A stretch of DNA of 64,000 nucleotides from Phycisphaerae bacterium (GCA_013360585.1 JABWBH010000003.1:1-64000); one strand, 5' to 3'. Shown: positions 11,527-50,668, counted from the first letter of the stretch. The notes: generated by a model from the letters alone, not told the origin. Numbers and translations: made by a program.

Positions 11527-13398
11527 ATGCGTCAATCTCGACGATGGAAATCCCTGAAAGCCCGTCTTGGGTTCCGAACCGCCGGGCGTGCGCGTGTCGC
11601 GCTGGCCGCAGGTGCCCTGGTTGTCGGGATCGCCGCAGCGGCGGTTGTCCCCACCACGCTGCGGGACTTTCACCTTCCGGGAACGCAGGTCGGCGACGTC
11701 GCCGTCGACGTGATCCGTCCTTCCCGGTATTGCGCGGAGTGTCACGCCTTTTACGACCGGGACGTCGAGCCGTACTCGACGTGGTCGGGCAGTCTGATGG
11801 CGCATGCGGGGCGGGATCCTCTCTTTTACGCCCAGATGACGCTTGCCAACCAGGACGTGGGGGAAGTCGGGTACTTCTGCCTGCGCTGTCACGTTCCGAT
11901 GTCGATGGTGACGGGTCACGCTCTGGACGCGGACGGGAGCACCCTCGACGCGGTGGACCGCGAGGGCGTCTCGTGCCACTTCTGTCACAGTCTGGTCGAT
12001 CCGGTGTACCGCCCGGACGTCAGCCCGGCGGAGGACAAGGCCGTGCTCACGGCGCTCGCGGAGGTTCCGGCGCATTACGGGAACGCGATGTTCGTGCTGG
12101 ATCCCTCGGGAACGCGTCGCGGTCCGCGCGAGGACGCGGACTCGGGTCATCCGGTCGTGCCCTCGCCGTTTCATCGCAGCGCCGACCTGTGCGGCACGTG
12201 CCACGACGTCGGCAACGTCACACTCGAACGCCGCTCGGACGGCACGTTCAAGTTCAACGAGATTGACTTCCCCGTTTCGGATACGGATCCGACGCATCAC
12301 TTTCCTCTCGAACGCACGTACACGGAGTGGAAGCTCAGCGCCTTTGCCGCCGGCGGGGTGGACATGGGCGGACGGTTCGGCGGCGATGGGGGAGGCGTCG
12401 TCAGCACGTGTCAGGACTGTCACATGCCGCGCACGACGGGTCAGGCGTGCTTCTTCGGCCCGACGCGAGAGGATCTCGCGCGGCATACGTTCGCCGGGGC
12501 GTCCGCCTGGGTGCTTGAAATCATCGCGGATTACTACGGTGATGATCCCGACGTCGACGAAGACGCGCTGCGCGACGGGCGCGAGCGCGCCGTGGATATG
12601 CTGCGCCGCGCCGCCACCCTCGAACCGCGTCAGGAAGGTGGAACACTGGTCGCGCGCGTGATCAACGAGTCCGGTCACAAGCTGCCGACCGGGCACATCG
12701 AGGGACGACGCGTGTTTCTTCAGGTTCGCGTGTTCGACGCCGAAGGGTCGCTGCTCCGCGAGTACGGCGCTTACGACGCAAATCGCGCCGAACTCGACGA
12801 GGCGTCGACCACCGTCTACGAGATGCACGTTGGTCTGAGCGACCGCATGTCCGAGTCGACCGGATATCCCGCCGGCGAGACGACGCACATGGCGCTCGCC
12901 GACCTGATCGTCAAGGACAACCGGATCCCTCCCCGGGGCTTCAACCGCGCCGCCTTCGCCGCCGCCGGCGCGCCGGTCGTCGGACACGAGTACGCCGACG
13001 GTGAGCACTGGGACGACGCGCCTTACTGGCTTCCGCAGCGCGCCGCTTATGCGGAGGTCCGCCTTTACTATCAGACGGTCACGCGACATTACATCGAGGC
13101 GCTGCGCGACGGGAACAGCACCGATCACTGGGGGGAGACGTTGCACCGCCTCTGGCGCCGGTCGGGCAAGGGTGCGCCGATTCTGATGGCGGCCGGGAGG
13201 ATCGAGCTTTCCGAATTCCTGCGCGGCGACGCGGACGGCGACGGCGATCTTGACCTCGGCGACTACGCGCGGTTCGCCGACTGCCTCGGCCGGACCGTCG
13301 CGCGCGACGAGCCATGCCGGACCTTCGATTTCGACGGAGACGGGCGGGCGGACCTCCGCGATTTCGCGGCGCTGTCCAACGCCCTGACGCGTCCGTGA
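11527..13398 (+). CDS. Pentahaem cytochrome c with dockerin-like C-terminus
   Basis: A 623-residue exported cytochrome. After a signal anchor (VALAAGALVVGIAAAAVV) come five haem-binding motifs: CAECH, CLRCH, CHFCH, CGTCH and CQDCH, the last near residue 300. The phrases REGVSCHFCHS and CGTCHDVGN resemble the multihaem cytochrome c554-like family. Residues about 370-560 form a haem-free domain. The last 55 residues hold two EF-hand-like loops (DADGDGDLDLGD and DFDGDGRADLRD), the tail shared with the preceding gene and with the propeller gene at 32.8 kb. The NapH-like gene starts 9 bp after the stop, so an electron path from quinol through the Fe-S protein to this cytochrome is plausible (inference). 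The direction of electron flow is unknown. Confidence 0.88.
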   Translation: MRQSRRWKSLKARLGFRTAGRARVALAAGALVVGIAAAAVVPTTLRDFHLPGTQVGDVAVDVIRPSRYCAECHAFYDRDVEPYSTWSGSLMAHAGRDPLFYAQMTLANQDVGEVGYFCLRCHVPMSMVTGHALDADGSTLDAVDREGVSCHFCHSLVDPVYRPDVSPAEDKAVLTALAEVPAHYGNAMFVLDPSGTRRGPREDADSGHPVVPSPFHRSADLCGTCHDVGNVTLERRSDGTFKFNEIDFPVSDTDPTHHFPLERTYTEWKLSAFAAGGVDMGGRFGGDGGGVVSTCQDCHMPRTTGQACFFGPTREDLARHTFAGASAWVLEIIADYYGDDPDVDEDALRDGRERAVDMLRRAATLEPRQEGGTLVARVINESGHKLPTGHIEGRRVFLQVRVFDAEGSLLREYGAYDANRAELDEASTTVYEMHVGLSDRMSESTGYPAGETTHMALADLIVKDNRIPPRGFNRAAFAAAGAPVVGHEYADGEHWDDAPYWLPQRAAYAEVRLYYQTVTRHYIEALRDGNSTDHWGETLHRLWRRSGKGAPILMAAGRIELSEFLRGDADGDGDLDLGDYARFADCLGRTVARDEPCRTFDFDGDGRADLRDFAALSNALTRP

Positions 13399-13407
13399 GG
13401 CACGGCC

Positions 13408-15210
13408 GTGAGACGACGTTCTGACGAAAGACCACGGGAGCCTCGCGGCGTGCGTCACGGACGGGGGAGCGTTCGGACGCCGCGCGGCACGGCATCCGCT
13501 GCGGGACCGGCGTCCGAGCCTGCGCCCGACCGCGTCCGGCCGCTGCAATCGCGGTTCAGCCGGTGGCGCGCTCTTTCTCTGGGAGTTGTTCACCTTCTGA
13601 TCGCGGCGCACATCGCCCACGCCCTGCTTGCGCCGCACACCCTGGCGCCGCTCGAACTCAACGAAATCGTTTACGCCCTCGAGGCCGGCATCGTGACGGC
13701 CGGATTTCTTTTCATGATCCTGGCCGTCGCGGCGACCGCCGTGTTCGGTCGCTTCTTCTGCTCCTGGGGCTGTCATTTCCTGGCGCTTCAGGATCTTTGC
13801 GCCGTCGCGCTTCACCGCCTCGGCGTTCGTCCGAAGGCGATCCGCAGCCGGCTGCTGGCGTGGGCTCCGGCGTGCGTGGCGTTGTACATGTTCGTCTGGC
13901 CCGTCGCGCTGCGCTGGCTGAGCGGCCGGACGGGACCGCAGTGGCGCGTCACGACGGACGCCGAAGGCTGGGCGTCGTTCTGGACGGAGCACTTCTGGCG
14001 CAACCTGCCCGGACCCGGGATTGCGGCGTTGACCTTTCTGGTTTGCGGCGCCATGTTGATCTACGTCTTCGGTTCACGCGGGTTCTGCACGTATGTCTGC
14101 CCTTACGGCGCTGTTTTCGCGTGGGCGGATCGGGCGGCACCGGGGCGGATTCGCCTCGCCGACCGATCGTGCAGCGATTGCGGGCGATGTACTGCGGTAT
14201 GCGGTTCTCACGTTCGCGTCGCCGACGAGCTTCAGCGCTACGGGATGGTCGTGAACCCGGCCTGCCTGAAAGACCTGGACTGCGTGGGCGTCTGCCCCGA
14301 CGGCGCGGTCCACTACGGCTTCGGACCGCCGGCGCTGGCGAAGGTGACGGTGCGCGATCAGCCCGTGCGCGCCCGGTACGATTTCTCGTGGACGGAGGAA
14401 GCGCTGCTGGCGGCAGGGGGGATCGCCGGTGTTGTCATCTTTCGAGGGTTGTATGAAAAGGTGTCGTTCTTCATGAGCCTGGCGCTGGGATTGCTCGGCG
14501 GGTATCAGGCCGTGCTGATCGCGCGTCTTGTCAGGCGACCGACGGTCTTTTTCAATCGCTGGCCTCTGAAGCGCGAGGGGCGCTGGCTTCCGGCGGGTAA
14601 AATCTTCGCCGGACTGACCTTCGTTTGCGTGGGCTTCGCCGCGCATAGCGCCGCGATTCGGTATCTGGTCTGGACGGGCCTGCGCGACCTCGACGCCCTC
14701 AGCGGAACCCCGGCGCTTTCGGATGCCGACACGGAAGAGACGCGCGCCCGGCTGGAAGAAGTTCTGCGACGGTTGGAGGCCGCGTATCGCTGGGGATTCC
14801 ACCGTCCCCCGAACCAGACCGACGCCCTCGCCCGCGCTCACGCTGCTCAGGGCACCTCCCTGATCGCCGCGGGGCGGGCTCGTCCGGCGATTCCGCATCT
14901 GCGACGGGCGATCGACCTGCGCCCGGATTTCGCCGCCGCCCACGCGGAACTCGGCGCAGCGCTGTCCGGCCTGAATGACGTCGCCGGCGGATTGCGCCAC
15001 CTTCGCATCGCCGTCCGGCTGGATCCGCAGTCCGCCAAGGCACAATACAATCTCGGCGTCGTCCTGGCCGCGACCGGACGCCCCGTCGAAGCGCGACAAG
15101 CGCTGACCGAAGCCCACCGCCTCGATCCGAACGACGCTCAAACCCGCGAGTGTCTGCGCCTCCTCGGAGAGACGCCGACGAATGCGCCGTCGGTCCCCGA
15201 CCGTCCGTAG
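13408..15210 (+). CDS. NapH-like 4Fe-4S membrane protein fused to TPR repeats
   Basis: Read from a GTG, 600 residues. Membrane helices (about residues 50-230) surround two Cys clusters typical of NapH/CcoG-like quinol-dehydrogenase components: FCSWGCHF and FCTYVCPYG. They are followed by a ferredoxin-like part CSDCGRCTAVC with CLKDLDCVGVCP. More helices follow, then from about residue 440 a soluble C-terminal domain of TPR-like repeats (RPAIPHLRRAIDLRPDFAAAHAELG; AKAQYNLGVVLAATGRPVEA). This fusion is not usual for NapH. The gene is 9 bp from the pentahaem cytochrome and surely co-transcribed. It is likely to pass electrons from the quinone pool to periplasmic haem proteins. A NapG-like ferredoxin is encoded separately at 34.4 kb. 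Confidence 0.82.
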   Translation: MRRRSDERPREPRGVRHGRGSVRTPRGTASAAGPASEPAPDRVRPLQSRFSRWRALSLGVVHLLIAAHIAHALLAPHTLAPLELNEIVYALEAGIVTAGFLFMILAVAATAVFGRFFCSWGCHFLALQDLCAVALHRLGVRPKAIRSRLLAWAPACVALYMFVWPVALRWLSGRTGPQWRVTTDAEGWASFWTEHFWRNLPGPGIAALTFLVCGAMLIYVFGSRGFCTYVCPYGAVFAWADRAAPGRIRLADRSCSDCGRCTAVCGSHVRVADELQRYGMVVNPACLKDLDCVGVCPDGAVHYGFGPPALAKVTVRDQPVRARYDFSWTEEALLAAGGIAGVVIFRGLYEKVSFFMSLALGLLGGYQAVLIARLVRRPTVFFNRWPLKREGRWLPAGKIFAGLTFVCVGFAAHSAAIRYLVWTGLRDLDALSGTPALSDADTEETRARLEEVLRRLEAAYRWGFHRPPNQTDALARAHAAQGTSLIAAGRARPAIPHLRRAIDLRPDFAAAHAELGAALSGLNDVAGGLRHLRIAVRLDPQSAKAQYNLGVVLAATGRPVEARQALTEAHRLDPNDAQTRECLRLLGETPTNAPSVPDRP

Positions 15211-39427: not shown

Positions 39428-40024
39428 TCAAGCGCCGAGGAGCACCTGCACTATCGGCAGGGCCGGCGGGAGCGGGCGCTGCCAGAGATGGCGGACGTCG
39501 AGGCGGAAGCCGGGCAGAACGGCGCTCTCGAAGACATGATCGGACAAAGGGACGTCGGCGTAGCGGTCGCCGGCGAGGCGCAGGAAAGTCGCGCGGCGCT
39601 CATCGGGGTCGATAATCCAGTATTCTTCGACGCCGGCCTTCTCGTAGGCGCTGCGCTTCAGTTCGTAGTCCCGGTCGACGCTTTCGGGGGAGACGATCTC
39701 GACGGCGAGGTCAGGCGGACCGTCGACGTAGCCGCGTTTCAGGATTCCACTGCGCGAGGCGCGGACGAAGGCGACGTCGGGTTCGGGGGAATACGTGTTT
39801 GACAGCCTGAAAGCAACCTTGCCGAGGGTCACGCGACCCAGTGATCTTGCCTCAGCGAATCCGCCGAGGATCAGCGTCAACCAGCGTTCCAGATCGTTAT
39901 GTTCAAGATTTTCCGGAGACGCCATGTAGATGACTCCGTCCAGGAGGTCGGCCTTCTGGTCCTCGCGGATCAGCTCCAGAAACTCGTGAAACGTGTAGCA
40001 GCCTGTTCTGGCATGCGCCGGCAT
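39428..40024 (-). CDS. Uma2 family (DUF820) putative endonuclease
   Basis: 198 residues. The Uma2/DUF820 family has the PD-(D/E)xK nuclease fold and is greatly expanded in planctomycetes and cyanobacteria; cellular roles are mostly unknown. Core motifs: EPDVAFVRAS, then PDLAVEIVSPESVDRDYELKRSAYEKAGVEEYWIIDP, giving the Asp, Glu-x-Val and Lys of the presumed active site. The start ATG 40024 has GAGG close upstream and a promoter at 40044-40071. No IS or toxin-antitoxin partner is beside it. Confidence 0.88.
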   Translation of the reverse strand: MPAHARTGCYTFHEFLELIREDQKADLLDGVIYMASPENLEHNDLERWLTLILGGFAEARSLGRVTLGKVAFRLSNTYSPEPDVAFVRASRSGILKRGYVDGPPDLAVEIVSPESVDRDYELKRSAYEKAGVEEYWIIDPDERRATFLRLAGDRYADVPLSDHVFESAVLPGFRLDVRHLWQRPLPPALPIVQVLLGA

Positions 40025-40299: not shown

Positions 40300-41547
40300 T
40301 TGAGCGCCTTGCCGGACAATCAGCGGATCGTCATCACCGGGGTGGGGCTGACCTCGCCGCTGGGGGACACGCTTGCGGACTTCCGCCGGAACCTGCTGGA
40401 GGGGCGGTCCGGCGTGACGACGATCGAGACGCGTTTCATGGGGCGGGTTCCGGCGGGGGTGTGCCGGTTCGACGAGCGGAAGCATCAGTCGAACAAGGAG
40501 CGGCGACGCGGGACGCGGGCGGGGGCGATCACGATCTTTTGCGCGCGGGAGGCGCTGGCGGAGGCGGGGATCGAACTGGCGAAGCGCGATCCTTCCCGGA
40601 TCGGCGTGTACGTGGGCGTCACGGAGCACGGGACCGTCGAAACCGAAAACGAGATCGCCGCGATCCGCGAGTACAACTACGACACGAAGTTCTGGTCGCA
40701 TCATCACAACCCCCGGACCGTGGCGAACAACCCGGCGGGCGAGGCGACGATCAACCTCGGGATCACCGGTCCTCATTACACGATCGGTGCGGCGTGTGCG
40801 GCGGGGAACGCGGGGGTCATCCAGGCCGTGCAGATGTTGAGGCTGGGCGAGGTGGACCTGGCGCTGGGTGGGGGGGTGTCCGAAAGCATTCACTCGTTCG
40901 GGATCTTCGCAAGCTTTGCGGCACAGAACGCGCTGGCGGATCACCCGGATCCGACGAAGGCGTCGCGCCCTTTCGACGTGGATCGGAAGGGGATTGTGGT
41001 CTCGGAGGGAGGGGCGTTGTTCGTGCTGGAACGGCTGAGCGACGCGCGGGCGCGGGGGGCGTCGATCGTGTGCGAGGTGGTCGGATACGCGATGAATTCG
41101 GATGCGGGCGACCCTGTGCTTCCGACGCCGGAGCGGTTGGCGCAATGCATGAAGAAGGCCCTGGACCGGGCGCGGCTGAACCCGTCGGACATCGATATCG
41201 TCAACACGCACGCGACAGGGACGGAGCTTGGGGATATTCAGGAGGCGGATGCGGTTCGCGCCGTATTTGGTTCCTGCACCGAGGTTTACGTCAACAACAC
41301 GAAGAGTTATATTGGGCACGCGATGGGGGCGGCAGGCGCGCTCGAACTGGCGGGGAACCTCCCGGCACTCTACGATGGCGTGGTGCATCCGACGATCAAC
41401 GTGGATCGGCTGGATGAGCGATGCGCGATGCCGGGGCTCGTCTTGAAAGAGCCGCGTCGGGCGTCTAAAGTGGACGTCATCCTGAACAATTCATTCGGGA
41501 TGCTGGGGATCAACTCGGTCGTCATCGTCAGACGGGTCACGGATTGA
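40300..41547 (+). CDS. Beta-ketoacyl-ACP synthase (FabF-like)
   Basis: Condenses malonyl-ACP with an acyl-ACP. 415 residues from a TTG start, the normal length for FabF (KAS II); starting at 40138 would add 54 implausible residues ahead of the promoter. Catalytic residues are Cys166 in GAACAAGN, His304 in NTHATGT and His340 in SYIGHAMGAAG. The nucleophile context AACAAGN differs from the common ACAT(S/G), and phrases such as FWSHHHNPRTVANNPAGEA suggest a specialised branch and not housekeeping FabF. The ACP gene starts 59 bp downstream. Likely role: a dedicated acyl or polyketide chain with the ACP and perhaps the CrtI-like enzyme. Confidence 0.88.
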   Translation: MSALPDNQRIVITGVGLTSPLGDTLADFRRNLLEGRSGVTTIETRFMGRVPAGVCRFDERKHQSNKERRRGTRAGAITIFCAREALAEAGIELAKRDPSRIGVYVGVTEHGTVETENEIAAIREYNYDTKFWSHHHNPRTVANNPAGEATINLGITGPHYTIGAACAAGNAGVIQAVQMLRLGEVDLALGGGVSESIHSFGIFASFAAQNALADHPDPTKASRPFDVDRKGIVVSEGGALFVLERLSDARARGASIVCEVVGYAMNSDAGDPVLPTPERLAQCMKKALDRARLNPSDIDIVNTHATGTELGDIQEADAVRAVFGSCTEVYVNNTKSYIGHAMGAAGALELAGNLPALYDGVVHPTINVDRLDERCAMPGLVLKEPRRASKVDVILNNSFGMLGINSVVIVRRVTD

Positions 41548-41606
41548 TCAGCACGGCGGCCTGCGGGCGTACGTGGCATATAAGGTGTTGAGGGTTTGAA
41601 GGTTAC

Positions 41607-41870
41607 ATGACGAAAGACGAAGTGAGGCAGATTGTCCTGAACATCATCGGCGTCGTCGCACCAGATGAGGATCTGAGCGACCTGAAGGGCGACGTACGCC
41701 TGCGCGATCAGCTTGAGATGGACTCGATGGATTTCCTGGACATTGTGATGGAGCTGCGCAAGCGTCATAAGATCGAGGTTCCGAAAGAGGATTATCCCAA
41801 CCTGGCGACCCTTGACGGGTGTGTTGAGTATCTGCTTCCCCGATTCCGGGAGTCGAAGGTCGCGGTGTAG
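41607..41870 (+). CDS. Acyl carrier protein
   Basis: 87 residues. The phosphopantetheine attachment site is Ser40 in EMDSMDFLDIVMEL, a DSM variant of the usual DSL. It is acidic, with the four-helix ACP layout and a basic C-terminus. It is paired with the ketoacyl synthase and followed 34 bp later by an intrinsic terminator, so these two genes form the operon. It is probably a dedicated ACP and not the housekeeping one, since fabD, fabG and fabH are absent. Confidence 0.9.
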   Translation: MTKDEVRQIVLNIIGVVAPDEDLSDLKGDVRLRDQLEMDSMDFLDIVMELRKRHKIEVPKEDYPNLATLDGCVEYLLPRFRESKVAV

Positions 41871-41904
41871 GCGACTGCGACGCAACCGGAAGAGCCTCAC
41901 GTGC

Positions 41905-41930
41905 GGCACCGCAGGTTCGGTGCCTTTTTT
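41905..41930 (+). terminator. Intrinsic terminator after the ACP gene
   Basis: GGCACCG (41905-41911) pairs perfectly with CGGTGCC (41918-41924) across a CAGGTT loop and is followed at once by six T. It is the clearest rho-independent terminator in the window, and it separates the synthase/ACP pair from the CrtI-like gene. Confidence 0.8.
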
Positions 41931-41961
41931 GTTGCGCGAGGATCCCGGGCGCGGACGGACG

Positions 41962-43470
41962 ATGAATTACGACGTCATCATCATCGGAGCGGGGATGAGC
42001 GGGCTGGCGGCGGGGATCCGGCTGGCGCACTTCGGGAAGCGGGTCTGCATCTTCGAGCGGCATTACGCATACGGTGGATTGAACTCGTATTACCGGCTGG
42101 GGGGGCGGGAGTTCGACGTCGGACTGCATGCGCTGACGAACTTCGTTCCAGCGGGACGGCGCGGGGCGCCGCTGAACAAGCTGTTGCGGCAGCTTCGGAT
42201 CGAGCGGGAGGAGTTCGACCTGCGGGAGCAGCTTGGGTCGCAGATCCGGTTTCCGTCGCGGGGGCTTCGGTTCAGCAATGACGTTGAGCTTCTCATCAGC
42301 GAAGTGCGGCGGGAGTTTCCGGATCAGGGGGACCGGTTCCTGCGGCTGATCGAGACGGTGAAGGCGCATGACGACGCGACGCTCGCGCCGACGCCTGTGT
42401 CGGGGCGCAGGGTTCTGGCGGAACATCTGAGCGACCCGATGCTGATCGACATGCTGCTTTGTCCGCTGATGTTTTACGGCTGTCCCGACGAGGACGACAT
42501 CGACTTCACCCACCTGGTGACGTTGTTCAAGAGCCTTTATCTGGAAGGTTTCGCGCGGCCTCGGGAGGGCGTGCGGCGGATCATCAAGACGCTGGTGCGT
42601 CGGTATCGCGGAGCGGGAGGCGAGCTGCGGATGCGTTGCGGAGTGCGGCGGCTGCACGTGTCCGGCGGGGGCGTGCGGGGCGTCGAGCTGGATGGCGGCG
42701 AAGTCGTGACGGCGCCGCTGGTTTTTTCGTGCGCGGGGTATCCGGAGACGATGCGGATGTGCCGAACCGCGGGCGGAGACGGCGGGGAACCGCTTTCTTA
42801 CGGGCGCGGCTCTGATGGGCGCGGTCCTGAGGGGGGCGGCGATGAGGGGCGCGGCGATGCGTCGGAGCGCTTCCTGACGGACGCGGATCGGCTGGCGGGG
42901 CGGTTGTCGTTTATCGAGTCGATCTGCGTGCTGGATCGCAAGCCGGCGGACCTGGGGTACGACCGGACGATCACGTTCTTCTCGACGATCGACCGGTTCG
43001 AGTACCGCGTGCCGGAAGGATTGATCGACCCGCGCAGCGGGGTCATCTGCTGCCCGAACAATTATGCGGATCATGAGCACCTGCCGGAGGGCGTGCTGCG
43101 GTTCACGACGCTGGCGAATTATGATCGCTGGAGGGCGCTGCACCCGCGCGGACCCGAAGGGGATCCGCCGCGCGAATATGTCGCGGCGAAGTTGGCGGCG
43201 CATGCCGAAGCCGTCGGGTACGCGCTGCGCTACCTTCCGGATTTCCGCCCGCACGTGGTGTTCACGGACACGTTCACGCCGCTGACGATCGAGCGTTTCA
43301 CGGGGCACGCGCGGGGGGCGGTATACGGGTCACCGCACAAATGCCGCGACGGGCGGACGCCGGTGGAGAACCTCTTCATCATCGGGACGGATCAGGGATA
43401 TCTGGGTATCATCGGGGCGCTGCTGAGCGGGATTACGATGGCGAACCTGCACGGGCTGGGGGGAGAATAA
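41962..43470 (+). CDS. CrtI-like FAD-dependent oxidoreductase (phytoene desaturase/retinol saturase type)
   Basis: 502 residues. The Rossmann FAD site is MNYDVIIIGAGMSGLAAG with ERHYAYGGLNSYY. The C-terminal FAD contact is NLFIIGTDQGYLGIIGALLSG. Members desaturate or saturate polyene or lipid chains. ATG 41962 is used because the protein then begins at the FAD motif. Residues 281-300 are a low-complexity insert GRGSDGRGPEGGGDEGRGDA encoded by four 15-bp tandem units preceded by a copy of the dispersed repeat. It lies directly behind the KS/ACP terminator, so it could need read-through or its own promoter, which I could not find. Function together with KS and ACP is inferred from proximity. 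Confidence 0.85.
   Translation: MNYDVIIIGAGMSGLAAGIRLAHFGKRVCIFERHYAYGGLNSYYRLGGREFDVGLHALTNFVPAGRRGAPLNKLLRQLRIEREEFDLREQLGSQIRFPSRGLRFSNDVELLISEVRREFPDQGDRFLRLIETVKAHDDATLAPTPVSGRRVLAEHLSDPMLIDMLLCPLMFYGCPDEDDIDFTHLVTLFKSLYLEGFARPREGVRRIIKTLVRRYRGAGGELRMRCGVRRLHVSGGGVRGVELDGGEVVTAPLVFSCAGYPETMRMCRTAGGDGGEPLSYGRGSDGRGPEGGGDEGRGDASERFLTDADRLAGRLSFIESICVLDRKPADLGYDRTITFFSTIDRFEYRVPEGLIDPRSGVICCPNNYADHEHLPEGVLRFTTLANYDRWRALHPRGPEGDPPREYVAAKLAAHAEAVGYALRYLPDFRPHVVFTDTFTPLTIERFTGHARGAVYGSPHKCRDGRTPVENLFIIGTDQGYLGIIGALLSGITMANLHGLGGE
42790..42861. repeat. Dispersed repeat plus 15-bp tandem units inside the CrtI-like gene
   Basis: 42790-42812 is identical to the reverse complement of 1952-1974. 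It runs into four 15-bp units starting at 42802, 42817, 42832 and 42847 (GGGCGCGGC-type). The frame is kept, adding a Gly/Arg/Asp-rich loop to the protein. Confidence 0.8.
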
Positions 43471-43770: not shown

Positions 43771-43943
43771 TTGCGTAGGTTTCGTGGGCGCGACGGCGAC
43801 GGGCGGCGCGGCAGGGCGTGTGCAGAGTGCGGATATGATCTGACCGGGACGTCTCGGGGGTGTGTCCGGAGTGCGGCACGGCGACAGGCGCCGGGAGGTC
43901 TGAAGGCGGCAAGACGGATGGCGCGGCTGAGACTGCGGGATGA
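43771..43943 (+). pseudogene. Zinc-ribbon small protein split by a one-base frameshift
   Basis: From TTG 43771 the frame reads RACAECGYDLTGTSRG, then leaves the motif. One base over, the sequence continues VCPECGTATGAGRS to TGA at 43941-43943. Joined, they give CxxCGYDLTGTxxGxCPECG, the zinc-ribbon signature very common in planctomycetes. The break falls in a run of five G, where a sixth G would restore the frame. It may be a sequencing indel, a real frameshift or a programmed one. The 3' part overlaps the start of the propeller gene at 43918. Intact length would be about 57 residues. Confidence 0.5.
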
Positions 43944-45087
43944 GGCGTTGTTACTGGGGCTGGCGGGACTTGTGACCGGCGCGTCGTGTGCCGGGCCGCG
44001 GGGAGGTTCAGAGTACCGGTTCCTTGCGGATGCCGACACGAACGAAGAACGCTTTCTGACGGGTGCGACTCGGAAAGAAGCGGATCGGAAAGCCGACGAT
44101 CCGGCGGGCAGGCTGGAGTGGCCGGGGCCTCCCGATGAACCGCGCGTGCGTTATCTGGGCGAGTTTCGGAGTAGCGAAGACGTCGGGGCGCGGACGGGGA
44201 ACTGGTTCGAGCGGGTGCTTTTCGGCGAGGAATCGGGGCATGCGCTGGTGACGCCGCAGAGCGTGGCGGTGGGGAGCGGCTGGGCGGCCGTCGCCGACCC
44301 GAACGTGGGGGTGCATCGGTTCAGCCCGCGCGGCGATTACGAACTGCTTCGCAGTTTCGTCGAAGCTGGGCCAAGTGGGCAGCGAGAGGGATCCGCAGGG
44401 GGAAGCGGCGGGGCGTCGGCGCCGGTGGCGGTTACGGCAGTCGGCGGCGAGACGTTGTGGGTGTCGGATGCAGCGGCCGGGTGCGTGTTTGTTTTGCAGG
44501 GGCAAGGGCGCGCGCGGGAGTTGGGGCGCGGGGTGCTGAAGCGTCCGGGGGGGCTTGCATACTGTCCGGTGAGCGGCGTCGTTCGCGTCGCGGACGCGGG
44601 TGGGCATGAGGTTGTTTTGTTCGACCTGGAAGGGCGGCTGGTCGGACGGGTAGGGCGGCGCGGTGCGGGTGCTGGCGAGTTCAATTATCCTTCCCACGTG
44701 GCGACGGCGGCGGACGGGCGCTGGGCGGTGGCGGATTCGCTGAACTTCCGGGTGCAGGTGTTCGACGCGGATGACCGGTTCATCATGCAGGTCGGCGGAA
44801 AGGGGAACGCGGCGGGGAACCTGGCGCTGCCGAAGGGCGTGGCGTTCGACGCGGACGGGAACCTCTGGGTGGTGGACGCGCAGTTCGAGAATGTTCAGGC
44901 GTTCGACCGCGAGGGGCGGCTGCTGATGGCGTTCGGTCAGGAAGGGCACGGACCGGGGGAGTTCTGGCTTCCGTCAGGGATGTGCATCGACGAGAAGAAC
45001 CGGATGTGGGTGGCGGATACGTATAACCGGAGGGTGCAGGTTTTCCTGATCCTGCGGGAGGGTTCGGGCGCCGACGGCGATGATTAG
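43918..45087 (+). CDS. NHL-type six-bladed beta-propeller lipoprotein 1
   Basis: 389 residues. The lipoprotein signal is EALLLGLAGLVTGASC. The signature LEWPGPPDEPRVRYLGEFRSS followed by NWFERVLFGEE marks the propeller family that accompanies multihaem cytochromes in many anaerobes. NHL repeats follow: GVVRVADAGGHEVVLFDLEG, GRWAVADSLNFRVQVFD, GNLWVVDAQFENVQAFDREG and RMWVADTYNRRVQVF. ATG 43918 is preferred, being the first start that gives a signal peptide. Its end overlaps the next cytochrome gene by 8 bp. It probably sits on the outer face of a membrane as a scaffold for the haem proteins (inference). Confidence 0.85.
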   Translation: MARLRLRDEALLLGLAGLVTGASCAGPRGGSEYRFLADADTNEERFLTGATRKEADRKADDPAGRLEWPGPPDEPRVRYLGEFRSSEDVGARTGNWFERVLFGEESGHALVTPQSVAVGSGWAAVADPNVGVHRFSPRGDYELLRSFVEAGPSGQREGSAGGSGGASAPVAVTAVGGETLWVSDAAAGCVFVLQGQGRARELGRGVLKRPGGLAYCPVSGVVRVADAGGHEVVLFDLEGRLVGRVGRRGAGAGEFNYPSHVATAADGRWAVADSLNFRVQVFDADDRFIMQVGGKGNAAGNLALPKGVAFDADGNLWVVDAQFENVQAFDREGRLLMAFGQEGHGPGEFWLPSGMCIDEKNRMWVADTYNRRVQVFLILREGSGADGDD

Positions 45088-46864
45088 CGAATGTCGAGTT
45101 GCGAATCACGAAGCTGCGGGGAAACCGAAGCGGGTTCTGCGTGTCGGGGTTGTGTTGTCCGTGCTTTCGGCTTGTCCCCCGGTGGCGGCGCAATCCTCGG
45201 TCGTAGGGTCGCCGCATGATTTGTCGGTGAGCGGTCCGGGCGGGGTTCACGCGCTCTTCGAGGAGCAGGTGTGCATCTTCTGTCACGCGCCGCACAACGC
45301 GACGGGGCAGACGCCGCTGTGGAACCGGCATCAACCGCCGACGCACTACCGGATTTATGAGAGTTCGACGACGGATGCGCGGATCGATCAGCCGAGCGGC
45401 CCGTCGAAGATGTGCCTGAGTTGTCATGACGGGTCGATCGCAGTGGGGTTGGTGGCGTCGCGCGAGGATCCGATCGCGATGAGCCGCTCGACGATTCCGC
45501 CGGGGTCTGCGGACCTGACGCAGGATCTGTCGGACGATCACCCGATCGGGTTCCGGTTTGATCGGGCGCTGGCGTCGCGCGACCGGCAATTGAGAAGTCC
45601 GGACGTGGTGACGGACCTGCTGCCGCTGGGTCGTCACGGCGAGCTTCAATGCACGACGTGTCACGACCCGCATAACAACGAACTCGGCGATTTTCTGCGG
45701 ATGCCGACGATGCGCTCTGCGATCTGCACGAGTTGCCACGACATGACAGGGTGGGACACGTGCAGCCACGCGACAAGCCCCGAGCGCATCCTCGGGCGGG
45801 CGGTCGATCCGCGCGAGCCGCTGCCTCATGCGACGGTCGGCGACGCCGCATGCCTCGGCTGTCACAAGATTCACTCGGCGGGATCGAGCGAGCGGCTGCT
45901 GCGCTTCAAGCGGGAGGAGGACAACTGCCTCAACTGCCACAACGGGAGCGTCGGGGCGCTGAACCTGGAGAACGAGTTTCGCAAGCCGAGCGCTCACCCG
46001 GTGTTCCGGTATGCGGGCCGACATGATCCGGCGGAAGATTCGCGTACGCAGCGGCGGCACGTTGAGTGCGCGGATTGTCATAATCCGCATGCGGCGGCGG
46101 GACGGGCGGACGCGGATTTCGGGCTGCCTGCGACGACGCCGGTGCTGGTGCAGCCCGCGATGCGGTTTGTTTCCGGGGTGGACCGAAGCGGGCACCCGAC
46201 GGACGTGGCGCGGTATGAATACGAAGTGTGCTTCAAATGCCACGCGGACGGCCTGTCCCGCGACGTCCGGTCCAACATCGTGCGGCAGGTGACGCAGACG
46301 AACACGCGGCTGGAGTTTCAGACGTCGAATCCGTCGTTTCATCCGGTCCTGGGTGCGCGCCGGAGCAATGACGTGGTGAGCCTGATTCCGCCGATGCAGG
46401 TGGGTTCGGTGCTGGGCTGCACGGATTGTCACAACTCGGATCAGGCGGACTCGGGCAATCCTTTTGCGCCGGCCGGGCCGCACGGGTCGATCTACGAACC
46501 CCTGCTGGCGGCGAATTACGAGACCGGCGAGTTTGTGACGGAAAGCCCGCAGGCGTATGCGCTGTGCTACCGGTGTCACGACCGGCGGAGCATTCTGAAT
46601 GATGAGAGCTTCCCGCTGCACAATATCCACGTGGTGCGCGGGCGGGCGTCGTGCAGCGCGTGTCACGACGCACACGGAATCAGCCGGACGCAGGGAGACG
46701 CGCGGAATCACTCGAACCTGATCAACTTCGACCTGTCGGTGGTGCGTCCCGCGGCGGGGGGGCTGGGTTCGCGGATCGAGTACGTGGACGAGGGGCGTTT
46801 TTCCGGGAGTTGCACGCTGACGTGCCACGGCGTGACGCACGTGCGGTTCCAGTACGGGCGGTAA
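45080..46864 (+). CDS. Large multihaem cytochrome c (11 CXXCH plus one CX3CH)
   Basis: 594 residues with an N-terminal signal (VLRVGVVLSVLSACPPVAAQ). Haem sites in order: CIFCH, CLSCH, CTTCH, CTSCH, CLGCH, CLNCH, CADCH, CFKCH, CTDCH, CYRCH and CSACH, and a terminal CTLTCH with three residues between the Cys. Many are followed by NPH or DPH (CTTCHDPHNN, CADCHNPHAA), typical of the paired-CXXCH family. It begins inside the stop region of the propeller gene (8-bp overlap), so translation is coupled. It is probably the main periplasmic or extracellular haem wire of this operon. Assembly needs cytochrome c maturation genes not in the window. Confidence 0.9.
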   Translation: MISECRVANHEAAGKPKRVLRVGVVLSVLSACPPVAAQSSVVGSPHDLSVSGPGGVHALFEEQVCIFCHAPHNATGQTPLWNRHQPPTHYRIYESSTTDARIDQPSGPSKMCLSCHDGSIAVGLVASREDPIAMSRSTIPPGSADLTQDLSDDHPIGFRFDRALASRDRQLRSPDVVTDLLPLGRHGELQCTTCHDPHNNELGDFLRMPTMRSAICTSCHDMTGWDTCSHATSPERILGRAVDPREPLPHATVGDAACLGCHKIHSAGSSERLLRFKREEDNCLNCHNGSVGALNLENEFRKPSAHPVFRYAGRHDPAEDSRTQRRHVECADCHNPHAAAGRADADFGLPATTPVLVQPAMRFVSGVDRSGHPTDVARYEYEVCFKCHADGLSRDVRSNIVRQVTQTNTRLEFQTSNPSFHPVLGARRSNDVVSLIPPMQVGSVLGCTDCHNSDQADSGNPFAPAGPHGSIYEPLLAANYETGEFVTESPQAYALCYRCHDRRSILNDESFPLHNIHVVRGRASCSACHDAHGISRTQGDARNHSNLINFDLSVVRPAAGGLGSRIEYVDEGRFSGSCTLTCHGVTHVRFQYGR

Positions 46865-46885
46865 GGGAAGTCGCGGAGTTAAGCG

Positions 46886-47680
46886 ATGCGTCGACGTCTG
46901 TCAGGGGTGCTTGTGATCGCGGGGGCGACGGCGCTGCTTTCGGGCGCCGCGGTTCCGTCGCAGGAGGCGAAGCCGGGCGGCGACGCGGTGGATGAGCGAT
47001 CGTCGGGCGCTCAAACCCTGCCGGAGATTCGGCAGGCGACGCACGGTGTGATCGGTGGTCCGCATGACTTCACATCGGCGACCGGAAGGGCGCGCGACGC
47101 TTGCGCCGCGTGCCACGTTCCGCATGTTCTGGGTGTGCGTCCGGTGACGGTCGCCGGTAGAGCAAGCACGGAGGCTGATGCAGGCGTCGCGGATCAGGCG
47201 GAGGCAGCTCCTTCGCCCCCCGACGCAAAGGAAGAGCGCTCCAGGGTTGCAGGAGAAGCGGAGGCGGCGGCTCGTCAGGCGATTCTCGAGATGTACCGGA
47301 TAACCGGACAGTCGCCGGCGCATGAGCCGAACCGGTTCACGCCGGGAGCGACGAGTCTGATCTGCCTCGGTTGTCACGACGGGACGGTCGCCTCATCCAT
47401 GATCGGGACGGCTCATGCGATGCTCGCCGGGGTCCGCGAGGGCTTCGAGGTTCCGGACGGGTTCGTCTGGCGCGATCATCCGATCGGCGTGCCGTATCCG
47501 CAGCGGGAGCGCGGGTACGTGCCGCGGTCGCGGGTGGAGGCGGACGGGCGGATCCGGCTTCCGGAAGGACGCGTCGAATGCGTGTCGTGTCATGACCCGC
47601 ACAATGCGGCGGGCGAACCTTATCTTCTGGCAATGTCGAACCGCCGCAGCGCGCTATGCCTGGCGTGTCACGAAAAATGA
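46886..47680 (+). CDS. Tetrahaem cytochrome c
   Basis: 264 residues. Signal peptide (LVIAGATALLSGAAVPSQ) and haem sites CAACH, CLGCH, CVSCH and CLACH, with the paired-CXXCH phrases ACHVPHVLG, CHDGTVASS and CVSCHDPHNAAGEPY. Between the first and second sites is a charged Ala/Glu-rich stretch (about residues 90-135). It starts 21 bp after the large cytochrome, with GGAG 8 nt before the ATG, and its stop overlaps the second propeller start as ATGA. Confidence 0.9.
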   Translation: MRRRLSGVLVIAGATALLSGAAVPSQEAKPGGDAVDERSSGAQTLPEIRQATHGVIGGPHDFTSATGRARDACAACHVPHVLGVRPVTVAGRASTEADAGVADQAEAAPSPPDAKEERSRVAGEAEAAARQAILEMYRITGQSPAHEPNRFTPGATSLICLGCHDGTVASSMIGTAHAMLAGVREGFEVPDGFVWRDHPIGVPYPQRERGYVPRSRVEADGRIRLPEGRVECVSCHDPHNAAGEPYLLAMSNRRSALCLACHEK

Positions 47681-48882
47681 AACGTCAAAACGTCAATTCA
47701 CCGAAACCCCGAGAGGTTGGAAAGGCGCGGCGTCGCAACGCAGGCGGTGCGACGGTCGGACGAGGATCGTGGACGGCAGGCTGCCTCGCAGGCGTGTTAG
47801 GGTCGGTGTGCGCGATCTGGCTTGCGGGGTGTGCGTCGGCCGGAGGGAGCCCCGGTGGGGCGTTTGAGCCGGCGACGTTCAGTGCGGAGTCGGGTGAGCT
47901 TGAAGCGGTGGTGCGCGGCGATCTTCTCGAGTTCGAACCGGGTCATGATCGCATGCCGAAGCAGAACCTGCTGGACCGGATCATTTTCGGTGAGAGGCGG
48001 TCCGCGAAGCGGCGACTGAGGACGCCGCAGGGCATGAACTTCGACGGCGTGACGCTGCTGGTGTGCGATCAAGGCGGGTCTGGCGTCGCCGCGATCACGA
48101 GGGCGGACTCCGTGGTGCGTTGGATGCCGAATCTGGGGAAGGAGTCCGTCGCGCCGCTGGATGTCTGCACCGATGATTCCGGACGCGTGTTCATTGCGGA
48201 CTCGGTTGCGGGAGTGATGTGCTGTCCGGCGTTGACGGAGGCGTCGGTGGATCGCTGGGAGGTCTTGCTTGCACCGGATGAGGCGCGCCGGCCGGTGAGC
48301 GTCGCGGTGTTCGGCGACGTGCTGGCGGTCGGGGACGCGCGGGCGGGGCGGATCGAGCGGGTCGAAGTGGCGACAGGACGGCGGCTTGAGGCGATCGAAT
48401 ACGGTGCAGGGGGAATGCGGATTGTGTCGCCGACGGGGCTGGCGTTTACGCGGGACGGGAGTCTGCTGGCGGCGGACGCGGTACAGGGGGTGGTGCATCG
48501 GTTTGACGCGGAGGGGACTCCGCTGGAGCCGATCGGGCGTCCCGGGCGGGGCGAGGGGGAATTCGTTCGACCGAAGGACGTGTGTGTGATCCGGTCGGGT
48601 CGCGTTGTCGTGGCGGATGCAGGGCGGCAATCGGTGCTGGTGTTTGATTCGGAAGGGCGTTTCCTGATCGAGGTGCGGGGGGGCGAGGGCTGGTCGGGGT
48701 TCACGATGCCGGGAGGGGTGTGCGCGTACGACATTGCGGCGGGTGATGAGGCGGAGGCGAGCGAGCGGGACGACCGAGGGGGTGATGCCCGGGAATTCAT
48801 CGTCGTCGCGGATACGCTCGGCGCGCCGTCGCTGGTGTTGGTGGAGTTGCGTGAGGTGAAGCCCGGAGGAGAGGAGCATTGA
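47677..48882 (+). CDS. NHL-type beta-propeller lipoprotein 2
   Basis: 401 residues, paralogous to the propeller at 43918. The lipobox segment is LGSVCAIWLAGC. The signature NLLDRIIFGER corresponds to NWFERVLFGEE of the first copy. Propeller repeats: GRVFIADSVAGVMCC, GVVHRFDAEGTPLEPIGRPG and GRVVVADAGRQSVLVFDSEG. The ATG in an ATGA overlap with the tetrahaem stop fixes the start. Its stop forms TTGA with the next gene. It is likely to have the same scaffold role for the adjacent octahaem protein. Confidence 0.85.
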   Translation: MKRQNVNSPKPREVGKARRRNAGGATVGRGSWTAGCLAGVLGSVCAIWLAGCASAGGSPGGAFEPATFSAESGELEAVVRGDLLEFEPGHDRMPKQNLLDRIIFGERRSAKRRLRTPQGMNFDGVTLLVCDQGGSGVAAITRADSVVRWMPNLGKESVAPLDVCTDDSGRVFIADSVAGVMCCPALTEASVDRWEVLLAPDEARRPVSVAVFGDVLAVGDARAGRIERVEVATGRRLEAIEYGAGGMRIVSPTGLAFTRDGSLLAADAVQGVVHRFDAEGTPLEPIGRPGRGEGEFVRPKDVCVIRSGRVVVADAGRQSVLVFDSEGRFLIEVRGGEGWSGFTMPGGVCAYDIAAGDEAEASERDDRGGDAREFIVVADTLGAPSLVLVELREVKPGGEEH

Positions 48883-50009
48883 CGCGGACCGGGTTCAGCG
48901 GAGTCAGGAAGCGACGTGCGGGTCGTCGAGGGAGCGCTTCCCTCGGGGCGCGGCTCTGTTTTGGGGGGGCGGTCGCACTGGCGGTGGAGCTGTCCGCGGC
49001 GCAGGAAGCGAGCTTCAGTCCGCACTGGCGGGCGGACGGCTGCGTGGTGTGTCACGAAGGTGGCGCGAAAGCGCCCGGACCGGTTCCCCGTGAGAAGGTG
49101 GACGTGCTTTGTCTGACCTGTCATGACGGGAAGTCGGCGGTGCGTGAGCGGCATCCGGTGGGGCGCACGTTCTCATCGGATCAGGTCGAGAACCGTGGGA
49201 GCTGGCCGCTGGTGGACGGACGGCTCAGTTGCGTCACATGTCATGATTTTTCGGCGCATTGCCGCGTCGCGCCAGAGCGCCCGCGGGACAATCCACGTTT
49301 TCTGCGCGAGTCGATCTCGGCGGGAGGCTCGGCTGCGAACTGTGGGGTTTGTCACGCCGCTGCACGAGCGTCGCGACATAACCCTCATCTGATGACGGAT
49401 CTGAGGGGCGGAGTGAACGCGTCTTCGTGCGGGTTCTGTCATCCCGAGCCGGTGGCGAGCGGAGCGAGCGCGGTGCGGACGGGGCGCGCGGCGCTGCACA
49501 CGGATGAGGTGACGCTGTGCGGGGCGTGTCACACGCAACACGTGGATTTTTTTGAACCCGGACACACGGGAGCGCCGATGACGGCGTCGCTGGTGGATCA
49601 ACTTCGGCGGTGGACGAGGGAAGCCGCTGCCCAAGCCGGCGGACCTGATCCGGGTGCCGCATCGCGTGCCGGGGCGGAGACCGTGGCGGATTCCGCGACG
49701 TCCGGACTGGGCTTGCCGCTCGACGCGGCAGGCCGGGTTACGTGTTCGACGTGTCATAATCCGCATGAACGCGGCGTGTTTCCGGCGGAAAACCCTCTCG
49801 GGCAAGGAGGGCTTGCGTTTCCGAAAAGCCCGGTCGCGCCCGCACAACTCCGCACGGACGCCGCGACGTTGTGCGGTGCGTGTCACGGAGGGGGCGGGCA
49901 AGCGAAATCTCTTGAGTCGCCGGGAAATGCGGCAGGATCGACGGTTTCAGGTGGAGGACGACCCGCGTGGCCGCCTCTGTCAGGAGATTTGAGCGAAGGC
50001 ATGAGATGA
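48879..50009 (+). CDS. Octahaem cytochrome c
   Basis: 376 residues from TTG 48879, which overlaps the propeller stop as TTGA. After a basic N-terminus and hydrophobic signal (CFGGAVALAVELSAAQ) come eight sites: CVVCH, CLTCH, CVTCH, CGVCH, CGFCH, CGACH, CSTCH and CGACH. His-rich spacers (HNPHLM, HTQHVDFFEPGH) could supply distal ligands. The C-terminal 40 residues are Gly/Ser rich. The stop overlaps the cyclophilin start as ATGA. Part of the same coupled operon. Confidence 0.88.
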   Translation: MTRTGFSGVRKRRAGRRGSASLGARLCFGGAVALAVELSAAQEASFSPHWRADGCVVCHEGGAKAPGPVPREKVDVLCLTCHDGKSAVRERHPVGRTFSSDQVENRGSWPLVDGRLSCVTCHDFSAHCRVAPERPRDNPRFLRESISAGGSAANCGVCHAAARASRHNPHLMTDLRGGVNASSCGFCHPEPVASGASAVRTGRAALHTDEVTLCGACHTQHVDFFEPGHTGAPMTASLVDQLRRWTREAAAQAGGPDPGAASRAGAETVADSATSGLGLPLDAAGRVTCSTCHNPHERGVFPAENPLGQGGLAFPKSPVAPAQLRTDAATLCGACHGGGGQAKSLESPGNAAGSTVSGGGRPAWPPLSGDLSEGMR

Positions 50010-50668
50010 TCGGGACACGAGTCAGTTGGTCGCTGATGCTGCTCGGGATTGCTGCGGGGCTTTGCGGGTGTCGAGCATCCGGTCGGTGCGGCGAGGTGGA
50101 GGGGTCTTCCACTGCGACGGGGCCGCGCGTTGTGTTCGACGTCGGACGTGACGGAGAAGACTGGGGAAGCATCCTCTTTGAGCTTGCTCCGAAGGAGGCG
50201 CCGGAAACGGTGGCGAACTTCCTTCGGTACGTCGATGACGGGTACTACGACGGAACGATCATTCACCGCGTGTTGATCGGCGAACACCAGCGGATCCAGA
50301 TTTTTCAGGGTGGCGGGTACACGGCGCTTCGATCGGACGCAAAACCCGGTCAACGCGCGCCGATTCCGCTGGAGACGCGGCGCGGATTGAGCAACGTCCG
50401 CGGGACGATCGCGATGGCGCGCGACGCCGCGCCGGACACCGCGACGAGTGAGTACTTCGTCAACCTGGGAGACAACACGCGGCTGGACTATCAAAATGAG
50501 GAAAAGCCGGGGTACGCGGTGTTCGGCCGGATTGTCTCGGGGTGGGAGGTCGTTGCGCGGATCATGCAGGTTCAGACGGAGGAGAATCCTGACCCCGTGT
50601 TGAAAGGGGAAGTTTCGACGCCTCTTAAGCCACCGGTTGTGCTGCGGGCGCGCCGTGTGGCGCCATGA
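50006..50668 (+). CDS. Cyclophilin-type peptidyl-prolyl isomerase lipoprotein
   Basis: 220 residues. Lipoprotein signal MLLGIAAGLCGC, then the cyclophilin fold: APKEAPETVANFLRYVDDGYY, IIHRVL (FHR region), IFQGGGY, RGTIAMAR and TSEYFVNLGDN. The start is fixed by the ATGA overlap with the octahaem gene. As the last gene of the cytochrome operon it is likely to assist folding of the exported haem proteins or propellers in the envelope (inference). It is convergent with the thioesterase gene. Confidence 0.9.
   Translation: MIGTRVSWSLMLLGIAAGLCGCRASGRCGEVEGSSTATGPRVVFDVGRDGEDWGSILFELAPKEAPETVANFLRYVDDGYYDGTIIHRVLIGEHQRIQIFQGGGYTALRSDAKPGQRAPIPLETRRGLSNVRGTIAMARDAAPDTATSEYFVNLGDNTRLDYQNEEKPGYAVFGRIVSGWEVVARIMQVQTEENPDPVLKGEVSTPLKPPVVLRARRVAP

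Follow-up and report, generated by a model that had tools for sequence, protein, structure and literature searches.

A cytochrome and beta-propeller gene cluster of a Phycisphaerae bacterium as a likely part of a Uet-type porin-cytochrome conduit

The undecahaem electron transfer (Uet) system is a predicted porin complex of the cathode-oxidizing Tenderiales and of Gallionella (Eddie et al. 2022, as cited in PMC10734462). As summarized in PMC10734462, its parts are UetJ with 11 or 12 haem motifs, the tetrahaem UetA, the trihaem UetDEG, the isomerase UetB, the NHL proteins UetHI and the beta-barrel UetC. The OmcE family forms extracellular filaments, in which a subunit provides a His ligand to a haem of the following one (PMC9473688). 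It is an open question how such cytochrome nanowires attach to the cell envelope, and their standing as the physiological conduit in Geobacter is disputed, as brought up in PMC11077965. Porin-cytochrome complexes have been noted earlier in MAGs of Planctomycetota, including the Phycisphaerae family UBA1845, but not in the detail given here (PMC10732223). An operon of SEEP-SRB1 and Desulfuromonadales (PMC5539420) resembles the present locus in having a propeller, large cytochromes and a peptidyl-prolyl isomerase, but its cytochromes carry 16 and 26 haems against 12, 4 and 8 here, and no porin was identified there.

The window, that is, the whole 64-kb stretch of DNA analyzed (contig C83 of a 4.24-Mb genome), has six plus-strand ORFs (A-F) at 43918-50668, each of them open. 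Its nearest named relatives are Phycisphaerae, in agreement with the planctomycete origin proposed by an earlier, sequence-only reading. The cluster represents the Phycisphaerae form of a probable conduit that has received little study and occurs, with the same gene neighbors, in more than 10 phyla. In functional terms, it is likely to supply the cytochromes and propellers of a Uet-type porin-cytochrome conduit that serves extracellular electron transfer and carries an OmcE-type wire. The features are the following:

43918..45087, + strand: gene A, NHL beta-propeller, probable lipoprotein, UetH/I-like (Pfam NHL 1.4e-18; 6-bladed propeller DUF5128 4.7e-13)
44119..44160, + strand: WPGPPDEPRVRYLG signature within A (read from the sequence)
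45080..46864, + strand: gene B, dodecahaem cytochrome, UetJ-like (11 CXXCH and 1 CX3CH)
45191..45742, + strand: OmcE-like tetrahaem domain of B, residues 38-221 (sequence and fold match to 7tfs)
45743..46861, + strand: octahaem C-terminal domain of B, residues 222-594 (8 motifs, 10 further invariant His)
46811..46828, + strand: CX3CH twelfth haem motif of B, CTLTCH at residue 578 (conservation of C578, C582 and H583)
46886..47680, + strand: gene C, OmcE-like tetrahaem cytochrome, UetA-like, candidate filament subunit (matches to 9yuq and 7tfs)
47677..48882, + strand: gene D, NHL beta-propeller lipoprotein, UetH/I-like (Pfam NHL 9.9e-9; lipobox LAGC)
48879..50009, + strand: gene E, octahaem cytochrome, 8 CXXCH, TTG start (Pfam Cytochrome_C7 5.6e-13)
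50006..50668, + strand: gene F, cyclophilin-type peptidyl-prolyl isomerase, lipoprotein (Pfam Pro_isomerase 1.7e-33)

A and B overlap by 8 bp, B and C are separated by 21 bp, and the C/D, D/E and E/F junctions are ATGA, TTGA and ATGA, respectively. In profile searches, B, C and E are multihaem cytochromes of the doubled-CXXCH kind, with 11 (plus the CX3CH), 4 and 8 CXXCH motifs. The six coupled genes, their junctions and the total of 23 CXXCH and one CX3CH had been claimed before and were found again when re-read from the sequence. The rest of the window has only six more CXXCH in its six frames, five of which belong to one other cytochrome gene. Promoter and terminator scans within the operon gave no signal above shuffled sequence.

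The dN/dS values against congener G003 are 0.26 for A, 0.19 for B, 0.30 for C, 0.40 for D, 0.39 for E and 0.11 for F. Because all six lie within 0.11-0.40, A-F are considered proteins under purifying selection. As judged by eye, the lipoboxes of D (LAGC) and F (LCGC) are clean, that of A (GASC) is weaker, and B, C and E begin with ordinary hydrophobic signal sequences. Predicted export signals are present on all six products.

The N-terminal part of B (residues 20-221) matches the OmcE nanowire protein of Geobacter (PDB 7tfs, phmmer E 3.5e-27) as well as 9yuq, another tetrahaem protein (E 3.4e-23). In the AlphaFold2 model of B, for which 72 of its own homologues were the input (mean pLDDT 86.6, pTM 0.86), residues 45-221 align with OmcE at VIA-align Z 12.4 and rmsd 2.7 A over 173 residues, and Foldseek gives E 3.4e-8. 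Like OmcE of Geobacter sulfurreducens, residues 38-221 of B and gene product C have four CXXCH and four distal His; the B domain is also matched by fold, C by sequence only. Unlike OmcE, B runs on into an octahaem domain, and in C haems 1 and 2 are set apart by a long insert. The sequence-only reading had suggested a haem-wire conduit in these cytochromes, but the OmcE-nanowire kinship of B and C and the Uet-like composition had escaped it.

All twelve haem motifs of B, CX3CH included, are invariant among 76 B sequences from more than 10 phyla (Planctomycetota, Nitrospirota, Verrucomicrobiota, Bacteroidota, Pseudomonadota, Thermodesulfobacteriota, Calditrichota, Zixibacteria, Acidobacteriota, Fidelibacterota, and others). 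The CX3CH residues C578/C582/H583 are found in 75/76, the one exception being cut by a contig end. Since this twelfth motif is constant, the family, which is known as undecahaem, looks dodecahaem, with a strict twelfth haem. Fourteen extra His are as invariant as the motifs (46, 72, 154, 198, 230, 265, 306, 337, 421, 468, 514, 517, 532, and 587), ten of them in the octahaem domain, and are therefore enough for bis-His ligation of all 12 haems.

The octahaem remainder of B has weak fold matches, the best being octahaem nitrite reductase and OcwA, together with hydroxylamine oxidoreductase; Z is 2.8-4.1 over all of these and 3.4-4.1 for the octahaem reductases and OcwA. These could point to a catalytic surface complex in place of a wire, where the octahaem part of B, or E, is an enzyme (of the nitrite or hydroxylamine type, or a terminal reductase of metals) that is supplied by the OmcE-like domain. 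Such Z values, however, are within the background described for the tool, and an octahaem-reductase identity of this domain was set aside for that reason. With spare His for every haem of B, there is also no obvious open catalytic haem, and we regard the enzymatic explanation as quite unlikely.

A match to B is found in 52/60 relatives (46/54 genera), so that the Uet-type conduit extends to Phycisphaerae and is common there. Among 392 genomes sampled across the phylum, 41 have a match, many of them weak or partial, and the plasmid collection searched contains no B homologue. In the tree of B, the window's clade (support 100) comprises 12 sequences, all from Planctomycetota apart from the window itself.

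C is linked to the OmcE-like group mainly through its match to 9yuq (E 1.3e-8 in the PDB sequence search, against 4.2e-5 for 7tfs). The pattern of four CXXCH and four distal His is common to C, the B domain and 56 other tetrahaem homologues (58 in the comparison set, B domain included), of which C, with its insert, is the most divergent 4-haem member. In the case of E, the PDB search gave no match. A scan of genome contigs found 559 relatives, of which 80 loci were kept for neighborhood counts; an E homologue lies downstream of B in eight of these, four belonging to Pseudomonadota.

The neighborhood of B is conserved. Of 60 wide B loci, 55 have a large beta-barrel porin, 51 an OmcE-like tetrahaem gene and 53 at least two propellers. 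The usual order is 4-haem, NHL, 5-haem, porin, NHL, B, as seen in Planctomycetota, Nitrospirota, Verrucomicrobiota, Bacteroidota, Ignavibacteriota, Calditrichota, Pseudomonadota, Thermodesulfobacteriota, and others. Within the window's B clade (12 rows of the tree) it is porin, A, B, C, D, often followed by E. The gene order proposed at first is thus retained in relatives for A-B-C-D-E, with F as the exception.

These counts bear on a second explanation, namely that the cytochromes store or relay electrons in the periplasm, serving a soluble reductase there and anchored by the lipoprotein propellers. The operon itself has no porin, the signal sequences guarantee export to the periplasm only, and octahaem reductases are weak fold neighbors of the B C-terminal domain. 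Against this, the porin accompanies B in nearly all of the wide loci and lies directly upstream of it in one congener, and the OmcE family makes extracellular filaments (PMC9473688). A purely periplasmic relay is accordingly held to be unlikely.

The porin of the window's genome is encoded on another contig (C21:151640-153676), divergent from an octahaem lipoprotein gene. This octahaem cytochrome (L195:10056-11345) is conserved in G001, G002 and G003 and is a possible extra conduit subunit. The porin has no useful Pfam match and the PDB sequence search gave no match. A model of the congener's porin (pLDDT 89.9) is a large barrel of ~28 long strands; in the fold search, MtrB of the Mtr complex had the top Z (16.9) and the top TM-score among the matches listed, with other barrels tied within 1 Z. 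The conduit thereby resembles MtrCAB/MtoAB in its large beta-barrel partner but has OmcE-like cytochromes and NHL propellers in place of MtrC and MtrA. None of the six proteins scores above the cut-off of the MtrA/DmsE decahaem family (TIGR03508 at most 53 bits, cut-off 192.2).

In G001 and G003 the porin is likewise apart from the A-F cluster and divergent from the octahaem gene. G002 has the octahaem gene, porin, B, C, D and E together, the porin directly upstream of B. Because G002 keeps the set together, the conduit is concluded to have been split in the window's lineage. In another genus (G019) it is porin-A that stands apart from B-C-D-E (contigs C61 and C22, L197 and L072); since this split point differs, two separate splits are suggested.

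A conduit separated from its porin might be a decaying remnant that is losing its function in this genus. The separate places of porin and A-F in the window genome, G001 and G003, one congener without A and the break between A and B in the other genus would agree with such decay. On the contrary, all six genes are intact and under purifying selection (dN/dS 0.11-0.40), and none of the three genomes has a damaged copy of the detached porin, which leaves decay as very improbable.

The region just upstream of A (window 40309-43470) encodes a ketoacyl synthase, an acyl carrier protein and an FAD oxidoreductase. An FAD oxidoreductase of similar domain make-up adjoins the detached porin on contig C21 (L195:6159-7598). 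Judging from this arrangement, recombination between genes of the FAD oxidoreductase regions could have split the conduit. Further upstream (window 39428-40024) there is a Uma2-family gene with a putative restriction endonuclease fold.

Of the 73 loci that extend far enough upstream of B, 69 have a propeller gene immediately before it; they come from many phyla, and the overlap is mostly 4 bp. A relaxed form of the propeller signature occurs in 86/130 such propellers versus 46/1788 background ORFs. The strict WPxPPxxPRxRYLG named in the sequence-only reading is present in A (WPGPPDEPRVRYLG) and absent from D. In three planctomycete relatives, D and E form a single ORF, propeller first and octahaem second:

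L087, 14299-16269: D-E fusion (NHL model 309 bits, E model 238 bits)
L116, 4295-6505: D-E fusion (NHL model 250 bits, E model 173 bits)
L122, 3656-5887: D-E fusion (NHL model 280 bits, E model 258 bits)

These fusions indicate that D and E work as a unit. The window's own genome also encodes a single ORF of an NHL propeller with 20 CXXCH (contig C1, L200:6070-9549) and, because of this and the D-E fusions, each propeller is considered to pair with the cytochrome that follows it. The earlier suggestion of functional propeller-cytochrome pairs is in this way borne out, both by the position of A before B across loci and by the fused genes. The natural gene splits and the propeller-cytochrome fusions offer ready-made tests of binding partners.

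Only the window and congener G003 have F next to the cluster; among the 80 homologous loci it occurs in one. Congener G002 has an F orthologue (68%) on a different contig, and no equally close copy was found in the other relatives examined. The isomerase was regarded as dedicated to a self-contained unit in the sequence-only reading; neither term can be kept, since the linkage of F is so narrow and the porin is encoded elsewhere in the genome. Synteny likewise rules out the isomerase as a core part of the conduit. F is probably an ordinary envelope isomerase that this genus has co-opted. Since Uet clusters and the SEEP-SRB1 operon also include isomerases, the association may reappear through convergence or loss. 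A literature search for the combination of OmcS, cyclophilin and NHL found no matching report in the collection searched.

By the component descriptions in PMC10734462, 5/6 Uet components are present at the genome level: an 11/12-haem cytochrome, a tetrahaem, two NHL proteins, an isomerase and a porin, all matched by description. The trihaem ones are missing. B would correspond to UetJ by motif count, with its 11 CXXCH and one CX3CH; C corresponds to UetA with four CXXCH and an OmcE-like character, and A and D to UetHI. The cyclophilin F is compared with UetB as isomerases generally, its linkage being that of the window and one congener. As for the two remaining features so described, the porin does not adjoin the cytochromes at the window cluster as UetC does (it is on C21, and adjacent in G002), and the cluster carries the octahaem E instead of UetDEG. 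Because these two features fail at the locus and UetJ is likened by description, the cluster is called a Uet-type variant and not Uet sensu stricto. B homologues with Uet-like neighbors exist in Gammaproteobacteria; for instance, the genes of locus L180 run NHL, trihaem, trihaem, porin, NHL, B, close to the Uet description in that source.

In the proposed conduit, cytochromes seated in the large beta-barrel porin would carry electrons between the periplasm and the outside of the cell. The porin partner would be the product of the separate locus on C21, together with the octahaem lipoprotein, presumably by co-assembly. B would be the hub, with its tetrahaem domain followed by the octahaem one. 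As the candidate polymerizing subunit, the OmcE-like C would build an extracellular haem wire or lengthen one. A (with B) and D (with E) may act as structural or assembly partners of their neighboring cytochromes, and F as an accessory envelope isomerase with no fixed part.

The direct observations behind this conduit are the genes present and their coupling, their homologies, the conserved haem motifs and His, the synteny, the fusions and a porin elsewhere in the genome; from them we infer location, filament formation, trans-membrane electron transfer and the roles of the propellers. Counting against it are the porin outside the window, the missing tri- or pentahaem partner, whose usual place is taken by E, and the divergence of C. 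The envelope electron conduit first suggested is supported in gene content, homology and synteny, but a self-contained unit and a dedicated isomerase are not.

B may be the meeting point of filament and conduit, because one OmcE-like unit is in line with eight more haems. We tentatively propose, as a possibility still short of an expectation, that B is a nanowire base adaptor: its OmcE-like domain would replace one filament subunit and hold the C polymer, and the octahaem domain would lead the haem chain to the porin. If true, it would explain how OmcE-type filaments join an outer-membrane conduit, with the same gene set in more than 10 phyla. One protein family joins the two kinds of domain throughout, accompanied nearly always by a propeller and in most cases by a porin.

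The window's genome also encodes two COX1-type oxidases and one NapC/NirT-type cytochrome, which are compatible with electron uptake or discharge. Elsewhere in the window, a pentahaem protein with a C-terminal dockerin-like domain (11527-13398) is followed by a 4Fe-4S/TPR membrane protein (13450-15210), and this pair is possibly another redox unit.
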